A DNA stretch of 53,918 nucleotides from an uncultured Rhodospirillaceae bacterium (GTDB taxonomy: Bacteria; Pseudomonadota; Alphaproteobacteria; UBA8366): positions 1 to 53,918 of the forward strand of contig CAJWLM010000018.1 of the NCBI GenBank assembly GCA_913043025.1, written 5' to 3'. The number at the start of each line of letters is the position of its first letter. The stretch's first letter is position 1. The notes under the pieces were generated by a model, which worked only from the letters and a program-made list of their open reading frames with translations, was not told where the DNA came from and made no database searches. Position numbers and translations under genes: made by a program. Shown here one piece after another: positions 38,737 to 41,500 of this stretch.

Positions 38737-39120
38737 TTATCGCTTACAGTCTAACACCCATACATCGTAAACAGGATGCTCCAAGCCGCTAAGTCCCGGA
38801 CTTGAGCCGAACATCCAGCCATGGAAAAGATCAATACGTGCCTCTTTTGGTTTGGCCTCGTAAATGTCGAGATAAGCAGCAGACTCAGGTGGTTCCTCGG
38901 GAGGTGTGCGTTCACATTTTTGCACCACAATTTCCAACGTCCCAAAGCGCACCGTTCGTCCAATGGGCGCCTCAAATGACCACACTCTAGCTGTCACTTT
39001 ATCCATCCCTTGCAAAACAACGGTATCTCCTTCAAAACCCCGCCCCGGGTTCGCAAAGAAAAGCAGGCCAAATAAGGTCACAGGCAAATAGCGAAATATA
39101 AACATAATTAAGTAGCTCAT
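38737..39120 (-). CDS. DUF2155 family secreted protein
   Basis: A 127-residue protein of a conserved alphaproteobacterial family of unknown function. It has an N-terminal signal peptide (about 1-27, cleaved near GRG-FEG) and a small beta-rich domain with VVLQGMDKVTARVWSFEAPIG, GTLEIVVQKCERTPPEEPPESAAYLDI and IDLFHGWMFGSSPGLSGLEHPVYDVWVLDC; two cysteines (in QKCE and LDCK) could form a periplasmic disulfide. It is the last gene of the minus-strand operon behind NDUFA12 and the MCE proteins, a pairing seen in many alphaproteobacteria. The function is probably linked to the envelope. Confidence 0.88.
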   Translation of the reverse strand: MSYLIMFIFRYLPVTLFGLLFFANPGRGFEGDTVVLQGMDKVTARVWSFEAPIGRTVRFGTLEIVVQKCERTPPEEPPESAAYLDIYEAKPKEARIDLFHGWMFGSSPGLSGLEHPVYDVWVLDCKR

Positions 39121-39150: not shown

Positions 39151-39672
39151 CTAGAGCTCCGGTGATTGAGTGGCCGGCCCTTCGCGTACCAATGCCAGTA
39201 CTCGCTCTAAGAGTTCGCCGAGCGATATAACGTCTTTTGTTTTTCTGAGCTCCGCTCCATCACCGACAGATTTTTTCCCACCGCCGGGCTCAAGTTTTAT
39301 ATAATTTCCGCCGAGAAGCCCATCATTACCTATTCTCACCCGCGTATCACTCGCTAGGCGAACATCGGACCTAATTGTCATTGTTACAACTGCTTTAAAC
39401 GTTTGGGGATCAACTTTTTGGTCAGTTACCGCGCCAACCTTAACGCCACCAATACGCACATCACTCCCTACCACCAGCCCATCAACAGCGGTAAACTGAG
39501 CAGTGACTTTATAACCACCCTCTGGCTTTAAGTCGGTCGATAAAAATGCGAAATAAACTGATATCCCAATAATGGATAAAACAACAAATCCAACAAACGC
39601 CTCTGCAGACTTTCGCGAGAATAGTGCTTGTGGTCCGATTTCCCGATCTTTTCCTTTAACATTTGATTTCAT
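39151..39672 (-). CDS. MCE/MlaD-like lipid-transport protein, third tandem copy
   Basis: A 173-residue inner-membrane-anchored periplasmic protein: one helix (about 27-45) and an MCE domain (about 53-130; GLVVGSDVRIGGVKVGAV, DTRVRIGNDGLLGGNYIKLEPGG), then a short helical tail (LGELLERVLALV). MlaD-type proteins form hexameric rings with an MlaFE ABC transporter and move phospholipids between membranes. The MCE core is closest to the classic MlaD. Its ATG overlaps the stop of the second copy by one base (TAATG), so translation is coupled. MlaE/MlaF are not in the window. Confidence 0.9.
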   Translation of the reverse strand: MKSNVKGKDREIGPQALFSRKSAEAFVGFVVLSIIGISVYFAFLSTDLKPEGGYKVTAQFTAVDGLVVGSDVRIGGVKVGAVTDQKVDPQTFKAVVTMTIRSDVRLASDTRVRIGNDGLLGGNYIKLEPGGGKKSVGDGAELRKTKDVISLGELLERVLALVREGPATQSPEL

Positions 39673-40127
39673 TAAAGACCGCCTCCCACACCCAAACCGA
39701 ATATTTCCTTCCCAACAGTAGTTTCAACCGGCTCTACGTCTTTAGTGTTTTTCAAGAAAAGTCCATTCTGGTCAGAAAGTTTGCCTTTACCCGGTACAAG
39801 AGCAATATATTTACCTCCAAGCACCCCCTCCGAAACAACTGCGGCTAAAGTATCAAACGGTAATTTCAATTCGTTAAGGATTTGCATCCTTACAAGCGCG
39901 CGGTAGTCTTTTTGATCTATTTTCAGGTCAACGACGGTGCCAACTTTCACGCCACCGATACGTACATCATTCCCGATACCGAGACCGTCAACAGAATTAA
40001 ACTTTGCTTTCAATTCCCAACCTTGAACCGGAGCAACGTTACCAACATTTTGTGCAAAAACGAGAAAAACACCTGCTACCAGAAGAACCATAGCAGCTAA
40101 AGTGGTCTCTAATACATTTCTTTTCAT
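39672..40127 (-). CDS. MCE/MlaD-like lipid-transport protein, second tandem copy
   Basis: A 151-residue paralogue: a membrane helix (about 8-25) and one MCE domain (about 36-115; GLGIGNDVRIGGVKVGTV, EGVLGGKYIALVPGKG). It lacks the C-terminal helix of its neighbours; the tail ends in GLGVGGGL instead. It shares the VRIGGVKVG core with the third copy, so the two probably arose by tandem duplication. It starts 17 bases after the first copy and overlaps the third by one base. Small size and a short tail suggest it might mix into a hetero-oligomeric ring, which is inference. Confidence 0.88.
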   Translation of the reverse strand: MKRNVLETTLAAMVLLVAGVFLVFAQNVGNVAPVQGWELKAKFNSVDGLGIGNDVRIGGVKVGTVVDLKIDQKDYRALVRMQILNELKLPFDTLAAVVSEGVLGGKYIALVPGKGKLSDQNGLFLKNTKDVEPVETTVGKEIFGLGVGGGL

Positions 40128-40144
40128 TTGACCACACCCACAGA

Positions 40145-40669
40145 TTAAGGATTGAGAACGCTAAACGGGTTATCAGTTTTCTTCGCCGATGCCGGTGCAG
40201 TTGCTCGCGCACGTTTTTCCTCAGCCTCAATCACAATTTTTTCTAAAAGTTCTAAAAGAGGTATAGAATCTTGGACAAATTCGAAGATATCGCCAGATTT
40301 CATATTGGCTTCAGATCCACCGGGTTCTATTTTAAGGTATTTTGAGCCAAGCAACCCATCGGAAACTATTGAGATTGTACTTTCATGGGGAACTGTAACT
40401 TTTTCCTGGAAAGCCATCTTCACTAGCACATTTTGCCGTTTGGTATCATATTCTCGCGCCGTCACTTGCCCAACCTTGATGCCCGTCAGAACAACCTCGC
40501 TGCCAACTGAAATACCATCAGTTGCATTAAAACGCGCGCTCAAAAGATAGCCCGCAGCCTCGCCCTTCGGCCCACTTTGATAGGACAGCAGAAATAGTGC
40601 CGCGGTTAACCCCATTACCAACATACCTAGCAAAATGTGTTTGATTTCGTGCCTTGACACCTCTCCCAT
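40145..40669 (-). CDS. MCE/MlaD-like lipid-transport protein, first tandem copy
   Basis: A 174-residue protein: membrane helix (about 12-30), MCE domain (about 40-118; GISVGSEVVLTGIKVGQV, DGLLGSKYLKIEPGG) and a helical C-terminal tail (IPLLELLEKIVIEAEEKRA). The Met at 40669 gives TGATG overlap with the NDUFA12 stop, the same coupling style as between copies two and three; an ATG at 40684 would add five residues. It is the most divergent of the three, with VVLTG in place of VRIGG. It leads the MCE trio downstream of NDUFA12. Confidence 0.9.
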   Translation of the reverse strand: MGEVSRHEIKHILLGMLVMGLTAALFLLSYQSGPKGEAAGYLLSARFNATDGISVGSEVVLTGIKVGQVTAREYDTKRQNVLVKMAFQEKVTVPHESTISIVSDGLLGSKYLKIEPGGSEANMKSGDIFEFVQDSIPLLELLEKIVIEAEEKRARATAPASAKKTDNPFSVLNP

Positions 40670-41025
40670 CAATTTGGCTTCCATGACTCATAGTCGCCCG
40701 TGGCGCTATCCCGTTGACCGTCTGCTAGAGTGTGGCCGGGTGGACGATAGGCACTTTCTGTCCCGGTCAGATTCGGAATGTGTTCCCTTTGCCAGGCGTG
40801 TGCCTTTAAATCGCCTGATGGTGGTTCATTGACGGTATAGTGAAGCCACCCATTCCATGGCGCCGGAACCTGACTGGCCTCGTCATCCCCGGCGTAAATC
40901 ACCCAGCGTCTCCGTCGTCCAGAGCCAGTAATACGTCGTTGTTGGTAGTATCGATTTCCCGACTCGTCCGAGCCCACGTAAGTACCGCTAAGCAACGTAA
41001 TCATTCGTGTGATCATCGTCGGCAT
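40669..41025 (-). CDS. Complex I accessory subunit NDUFA12 homologue
   Basis: Homologue of the mitochondrial B17.2/NDUFA12 accessory subunit of NADH:ubiquinone oxidoreductase, found in alphaproteobacteria. With Met 41025 it has 118 residues; GGAGG lies seven bases upstream, which decides this start over the ATG at 41049. Family features: GTYVGSDESGNRYYQQR, RRRRWVIYAGDDEASQVPAPWNGWLHYT, and the conserved C-terminal YRPPG. The protein sits on the matrix/cytosolic arm of complex I, where it may aid assembly. Its location ahead of the MCE genes and away from the nuo operon is typical for this group. Confidence 0.93.
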   Translation of the reverse strand: MPTMITRMITLLSGTYVGSDESGNRYYQQRRITGSGRRRRWVIYAGDDEASQVPAPWNGWLHYTVNEPPSGDLKAHAWQREHIPNLTGTESAYRPPGHTLADGQRDSATGDYESWKPN

Positions 41026-41500
41026 GAAGGAAACCTCCGTTCCATACAATTTGAATAGAATATGACATTGCCGCCCGCGTCAGTCCAGAGCTTCAAAACA
41101 AAATACAACTTATCACCTCTATATAAAATATTTGTTTCGGTACCAAAGTAATACAAACAACCCTGAGTCTGCAGAAATCCAATGTATTTGCTTTGACGTA
41201 ATGTATATCGTTATTGATGCAACAAATTTCGTAATATGGATAACAGTGGTTTTTTTGTAAATCACTCAATAATCACTTGCACCACCCACATCTAGTAGAT
41301 ACTATATTGATAAGGCTCTAAATGTTGTGTAACAGGGTTTGGTTGGTATGAATGGCGCTTAGGGTCCTACAGAAGTGTAGTCATTGGGTAATAGGGGATT
41401 AATTTCTAAAAGCCCAGGTTTTTTTGGTGCTGATTCCATGTTGGCCAGCACCCAGTGCGCGCTAAAATAAGCGCGTTTATGAGTTTTTGGGGGATATGAT
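41026..41500. other. Spacer upstream of nrdJ
   Basis: 475 bases with no credible gene. It holds a weak promoter candidate, TTGCAC (41277-41282), 17 bases, TACTAT (41300-41305), and a small perfect inverted repeat CGCGCT-AAAATA-AGCGCG (about 41457-41474) shortly before the GGGGGA ribosome binding site of nrdJ. No cobalamin riboswitch core is recognisable and no convincing pair of NrdR boxes was found. Confidence 0.4.

Follow-up and report, generated by a model that had tools for sequence, protein, structure and literature searches.

In the window, the whole 53,918-nucleotide stretch of alphaproteobacterial DNA analysed here, three consecutive minus-strand ORFs lie between an NDUFA12 gene and a DUF2155 gene. 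A preliminary description had taken them for three tandem MCE/MlaD-like genes, and each was found to score above the Pfam MlaD cut-off (PF02470, 25.1 bits), with one matched stretch in each copy. The features of the locus are listed below.

40669..41049, minus strand: NDUFA12 gene, the first gene of the block (PF05071, 87.8 bits against a cut-off of 23)
40667-40671, minus strand: TGATG formed by the NDUFA12 stop codon and the alpha start codon (read from the sequence)
40145..40669, minus strand: alpha MlaD gene (copy 1), 174 amino acids (PF02470, 58.8 bits), grouping with first-position copies elsewhere
40199..40258, minus strand: alpha residues 138-157, a long C-terminal helix (AlphaFold2 model)
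39672..40127, minus strand: beta1 MlaD gene (copy 2, the middle one), 151 amino acids (PF02470, 65.8 bits), beta group
40095..40097, minus strand: codon 11 of beta1, encoding Ala instead of the Gly of the family (alignment to E. coli MlaD Gly11)
39702..39728, minus strand: beta1 residues 134-142, a short C-terminal helix (AlphaFold2 model)
39670..39674, minus strand: TAATG overlap of the beta1 stop codon and the beta2 start codon (read from the sequence)
39151..39672, minus strand: beta2 MlaD gene (copy 3), 173 amino acids (PF02470, 73.8 bits), beta group
38737..39120, minus strand: DUF2155 gene, the last gene of the block (PF09923, 103.6 bits against a cut-off of 27)

The TGATG and TAATG couplings and the short gap of the preliminary description can be read in the sequence; the TGATG joins the NDUFA12 gene to copy 1, and a gap of 17 bases separates copy 1 from copy 2. 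The gap between the beta2 and DUF2155 genes is 30 bases. The alpha ORF has an ATG at 40669 and another in-frame ATG at 40684; the former is preferred because the counterpart ORF of a genome of another genus (G009) begins at that position. The top NCBIfam match of all three copies is TIGR04430 (MlaD), although the scores (105.8, 103.4, and 129.9 bits for copies 1, 2, and 3) lie below its cut-off of 135 bits. Several MCE domains per polypeptide, as in PqiB and LetB, were not found, each copy having a single matched stretch. Since all three genomes of the genus, as well as G009, have an identical gene order, the trio is not a chance arrangement. At most of the examined loci, also where no NDUFA12 was found, a DUF2155 gene adjoins the MlaD genes. 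Possibly, the DUF2155 protein is tied to the same transporter as the MlaD genes.

AlphaFold2 models of copies 1 and 2 (mean pLDDT 84.1 and 85.6, respectively) each have a transmembrane (TM) helix, an MCE barrel, and a C-terminal helix. Their top solved matches in Foldseek are MlaD, and the E. coli domain 5uw2 superposes at 1.1-1.8 A. Thus, the MlaD layout of an N-terminal TM helix, one MCE barrel, and a C-terminal helix is present in the trio, for copy 3 as judged from its sequence. The preliminary description had the middle copy lacking the C-terminal helix of the others. This turned out to be wrong, as a homologous segment is present in an altered and short form, with a predicted helix at residues 134-142; it is 9 residues long, with falling confidence, against 20 residues in alpha. 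The C-terminal segment of beta1 is almost identical in the two genera that carry this trio, and single-copy MlaDs likewise end shortly after this segment. The TM helix, the MCE domain, and the pore-loop glycine are kept in each paralogue. The alpha proteins of the window and of L039, L040, L042, L044, L046, and L047, all belonging to the window's family, end in NPF or SPF plus a following Ser or Gly, preceded by a charged stretch; this shared motif is missing from L041 and L045. The loops of alpha are more acidic than those of beta over the class (Mann-Whitney p 1.2e-6, from rows that are not independent of each other). An idea that MlaC docks on alpha only, based on this loop charge, was dropped, as alpha of the triplet lineage is itself nearly neutral (mean -0.25). 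The idea that the halves of the TM helix had decayed in a complementary manner was also considered and rejected: beta2 is off the consensus at 6-8 of 11 positions in the C-terminal half and beta1 at 1-2, and other betas reach 8.

In most bacteria, the MlaD ring protein is encoded by one gene. Is this also the case in Alphaproteobacteria? The locus was surveyed in 59 genomes including the window genome (11 of its family, 32 of the rest of its order, and 16 of other families). In the family, the locus carries three MCE genes in G009 and the three genomes of the genus, and two in six others; in G005, belonging to the same genus as G009, the contig ends inside the beta1 gene, and only two MCE genes are visible. 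In the rest of the order, 28 of the 32 genomes have two MCE genes at the locus, one (G016) has a locus cut by the contig end, and no short MCE gene was found in G021, G024, and G037. In the other families, one MCE gene was found in 11 of the 16 genomes, two in four (G044, G049, G050, and G058), and only a long MCE protein in G054. Both alpha-type and beta-type copies are present in 26 of the 28 genomes of the order that are at least 90% complete, the other two being cut by contig ends. Among 80 named loci found via NDUFA12, some of which are cut by contig ends and among which records very near the window genome are possibly absent, 55 have one MCE gene, 13 have two, 12 have none, and none has three. 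In a survey of 289 genomes of the class with an alpha-based profile (E 1e-20, matches anywhere in the genome), there was one match in 203 genomes, two in 51, three in four, and zero in 31; these counts are lower bounds, as 12 candidates were scored where a first look gave more than 12. More than three matches were seen in none of the 289 genomes among the candidates scored. Two of the two-match genomes (G065 and G323) have one gene at the locus. In summary, two MlaD genes, not one, are the rule in the order of the window genome. The statement of the preliminary description that Alphaproteobacteria commonly carry one MlaD-like gene at this locus is true outside this order, as the named loci indicate, but not within it.

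Alpha and beta labels were given by gene position and afterwards checked on trees, except that the copies of G016 were labelled by their tree neighbours; copies of G030, G276, and G289 were re-labelled, as long open frames had misplaced them in sorting. In a tree of MCE domains (101 rows, without five long or off-locus MCE proteins, which were excluded from subsequent comparisons too, and the truncated G005 beta1), the first-position copies cluster together, and so do the second-position copies. When named loci were added (25 of the 66 single-copy rows used; the truncated G005 beta1 again excluded), 45 of the 46 alpha rows and the four triplet alphas formed one clade (SH-aLRT 97) that includes Telmatospirillum and Oleispirillum naphthae. 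Among the named relatives, Aestuariispira insulae (L104) and O. naphthae (L161) have the pair. Six named loci were omitted from one comparison, being taken, by their contigs, to be the same genomes as G007, G015, G025, G034, G040, and G058. The sole alpha row outside the clade is that of L127, whose pair (L127:1693-2734) looks like a separate duplication, although it retains the alpha and beta labels here. This MCE pair lies beside NDUFA12, the C-terminus of its second copy resembles that of beta1, and no DUF2155 match was found near it within the stretch examined.

Copies 2 and 3 of the window are 37% identical to each other and both fall in the beta group of the trees. Thus, the trio consists of alpha, beta1, and beta2. 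A second trio was found in an unrelated family, f78 (G116, G211, and G289; loci L202, L203, and L204). In a tree of 110 rows including it, its first copy sides with alpha and the other two with beta (support 96 each), and a beta subgroup containing beta1 and beta2 (support 97) excludes the f78 beta copies. These quick trees of about 150 columns have soft deep forks, and the alphas of G049 and G058 shift between trees. By these phylogenies, alpha and beta stem from an ancient duplication, and a later duplication of beta produced the alpha-beta1-beta2 order in two genera; beta was duplicated twice independently, each time yielding an alpha-beta-beta' set. The variant is not peculiar to this genome: the alpha/beta pair occurs widely across the class, and triplets have arisen two or more times. 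The count of MCE genes across relatives suggested in the preliminary description found the trio again in the genus and in G009.

All three copies are under purifying selection. The dN/dS values, limited to comparisons within genera (synonymous sites are saturated between genera), are 0.03-0.08 for alpha, 0.10-0.15 for beta1, and 0.14-0.30 for beta2, compared with 0.19-0.23 for NDUFA12 and 0.08-0.15 for DUF2155. Among the 38 alpha-beta pairs of the 59-genome locus survey, the alpha stop codon and the beta start codon overlap as ATGA in 21. In a chosen subset of genomes, the divergence ratio of the triplet lineage was 1.42 for beta1 and 1.37 for beta2, and 1.19 for alpha, 1.21 for NDUFA12, 1.41 for alr, 1.07 for DUF2155, 1.05 for MlaE, 1.03 for RadA, and 0.98 for MlaF. 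A co-acceleration in which alpha adapted to the split of beta was therefore rejected, alpha being no faster than control genes (1.19 versus 1.21 for NDUFA12).

Where is the permease? In the window genome (G000; 3.08 Mb, 97% complete), PF02470 matched four times, and there are two MlaE. The fourth MCE protein, of 349 amino acids, is encoded with its own permease on contig C24. The C24 set (L037:3974-7690) comprises an STAS-MlaE fusion, an ATPase, the long MCE protein, and an ORF whose start resembles that of a lipoprotein; the gene names other than MlaE and MCE are my own reading. This leaves a single permease for the three short MlaD-like proteins. The preliminary description had placed a permease elsewhere in the genome, and this was borne out: the second MlaE gene, followed by a gene for an MlaF-type ATPase, lies between alr and radA on contig C6. 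Adjacent MlaE and MlaF genes were found in all of the 21 genomes inspected, and both alr and radA flank them in 19; G058 has only radA, and G050 has neither. No separate MlaB gene was seen beside this orphan mlaE-mlaF pair in the block inspected. The Mla components MlaE and MlaF are accompanied in the window genome by MlaA and MlaC; there is one MlaA match, which one of five MlaC matches adjoins. The five MlaC-family matches, as opposed to the one MlaA, are spread over contigs C1, C2, C4, and C15 (L096-L100).

Three PF02470 matches and one MlaE were counted in each of the triplet genomes G009 (100% complete, 8% contaminated), G116, G211, and G289, and two PF02470 matches and one MlaE in G014, G023, G050, G058, G084, and G186. 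The last (L224) is a genome of 0.9 Mb, rated 100% complete, in which both alpha and beta MlaD are retained together with one MlaE. Since these genomes with several MCE genes have a single MlaE, the paralogues either share it or work without it. Several MCE paralogues on one permease is a strongly supported arrangement, and I infer that the orphan mlaE-mlaF pair is the partner of the three MlaD copies. It is very probable that alpha, beta1, and beta2 are MlaD-type subunits of this orphan MlaEF.

The TM helix offers a further clue. In the E. coli MlaFEDB complex, as described in part of PMC7790496, there are three non-equivalent kinds of contact between the MlaE dimer and the MlaD TM helices, each made by two of the six helices; in the four outer ones, Gly11 packs against a pair of glycines in the IF1 helix of MlaE. 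Gly11 is conserved in 218 of the 220 proteins other than beta1 (alpha, 64/65; beta, 63/64; single copies, 73/73; triplet alpha, 4/4; beta2, 5/5; f78 proteins, 9/9; two rows that duplicated another record of their own genome were left out of the tally). The two exceptions are G050 alpha, a strongly divergent row with Tyr, and the second L127 copy, with Ala. In beta1, Gly11 is found in none of the four sequences with a known start, and all four have Ala, to be counted as one inherited event. MlaE of the triplet genomes G000, G001, G002, G005, and G009 retains both IF1 glycines. A phmmer register that puts Thr9 of beta1 opposite E. coli Gly11 was set aside for the MAFFT register with Ala11, because three profiles (of the whole set, of the single copies, and of alpha) place E. 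coli Gly11 in a conserved Gly column; the local match of the beta profile to E. coli MlaD begins past Gly11. The change from Gly to Ala may be harmless, since E. coli Gly11 point mutants and IF1 truncations are reported in part of PMC7790496 to complement still. Nor is the loss of Gly11 a general mark of triplets, since the f78 trio has it in all nine proteins. The pattern fits beta1 at the two seats on the MlaE core and alpha and beta2 at the four IF1 seats, which is a lead rather than proof.

How might three MlaD paralogues use one permease? A hetero-hexamer appears to be the best explanation, and I consider it somewhat probable that alpha, beta1, and beta2 form one mixed six-membered ring on an MlaE homodimer. 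The three genes would then encode specialised subunits of one Mla-type phospholipid ABC transporter, with a stoichiometry of perhaps 2:2:2, two of each subunit being the simplest make-up; MlaC would exchange phospholipid with the mixed ring, with MlaA acting in the outer membrane. The mixed ring is favoured because several genomes pair two or three MCE paralogues with one permease, because alpha and beta are retained together even in the 0.9 Mb genome, because the genes are coupled and all three are under purifying selection, and because beta has been duplicated twice with at most three matches per genome among the candidates scored. On the other hand, the co-retention may partly reflect an operon inherited whole, and the unaccelerated alpha of the triplet lineage also counts against the mixed ring. 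The main rival, in which each paralogue would form its own homo-hexamer and take turns on the single MlaEF to serve different substrates or conditions, is unlikely but has to be taken seriously. All solved MlaD rings are described as homo-hexamers in part of PMC12436622, each paralogue keeps a TM helix, an MCE domain, and the pore-loop glycine, and alpha and beta differ in C-terminal length and loop charge. Yet the pairs are kept together and translationally coupled, also in the 0.9 Mb genome, and a homo-hexamer of beta1 would be devoid of Gly11 at all four IF1 contacts, though MlaE retains both IF1 glycines.

A reading in which a later beta copy is redundant, decaying, or acting away from MlaE, with alpha and the other beta being sufficient, is improbable. 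It would account for the loss of a near-invariant glycine and the weak C-terminal helix of beta1, as well as for the dN/dS of beta2, the highest of the three; but the values of both copies are well under 1, the C-terminal segment of beta1 is nearly the same in two genera, and both copies are present in the four triplet genomes with a whole locus. Least probable are stacked rings, with alpha and beta homo-hexamers piled up like the MCE domains of PqiB or LetB. Multi-ring MCE stacks of this kind exist in these two proteins (part of PMC12436622), but each protein here has its own N-terminal TM helix, and the linkers from the TM helix to the barrel in the two modelled copies are short (9 residues in alpha and 8 in beta1), leaving scant room for a second level; their similar lengths would suit one level of ring.

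For the mixed ring, a more specific seat-by-seat model can be drawn up. The two-fold MlaE dimer would offer three non-equivalent seats for six MlaD subunits, so that duplicated MlaD genes would specialise one per seat, with three as the ceiling. Having no Gly11, beta1 would occupy the two seats next to the MlaE core, and the four IF1-helix seats would go to alpha and beta2, both of which have Gly11. The central bundle would be interrupted at opposite points by the long helices of alpha and the short ones of beta1, so that two fixed lateral gates would arise as docking sites for MlaC. For E. coli, it is reported that lipids pass between the MlaD C-terminal helices and that one or two MlaC dock per ring, two of them on opposite faces (part of PMC11289387). 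Taken jointly, the seats, the ceiling of three, and the two lateral gates make a doubtful model.

Several known systems resemble the one described here. Like the window proteins, MlaD of E. coli MlaFEDB has a single MCE domain, an N-terminal TM helix, and a C-terminal helix, and its partners MlaE, MlaF, MlaA, and MlaC all have counterparts in the window genome; unlike it, the E. coli ring is a homo-hexamer made from one MlaD, and the mlaD genes of the window sit beside NDUFA12, apart from mlaE-mlaF. Isom et al. 2017 (part of PMC5561183) remarked on the neighbourhood of NDUFA12 and MCE genes. The NDUFA12-linked alphaproteobacterial MlaD shares the locus and the kind of protein, but it is a single gene in 55 of the 80 named loci, in contrast to two genes in the order of the window genome and three in its genus and sister genus. 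Mycobacterial Mce1 is described as having a hetero-hexameric MCE ring of Mce1A-1F (parts of PMC10665443 and PMC12436622). It likewise has several MCE paralogues in one cluster, and a mixed ring is what is proposed here; however, as far as those parts go, Mce1 has six long proteins and the permeases YrbE1A and YrbE1B, unlike the three short proteins and one MlaE gene here. The window genome, with three MCE genes at the locus and one orphan MlaE, does not have the Mce1-type set of six MCE proteins and two permease genes. The layout of Brucella Mpc, as given in part of PMC12436622, resembles the C24 set, which has its own permease and is separate from the three short MlaD proteins. According to the same part of that source, the rings of Mla, Pqi, and Let with solved structures are homo-hexamers.

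No paper on paired or tripled MlaD in Alphaproteobacteria was recognised by its title or the opening of its abstract, in a search with most subscription papers and all bioRxiv-only preprints outside its scope. At least 55 of the 289 genomes of the class survey have two or more matches to the alpha profile, so the picture of one MlaD may fail for a sizeable part of the class. A natural set of two or three MlaD paralogues with one permease would yield a mixed ring whose subunits have fixed places. Such a ring would make it possible to ask which of the six subunits touches the permease, which one receives MlaC, and where lipids enter, all of which a homo-hexamer conceals.
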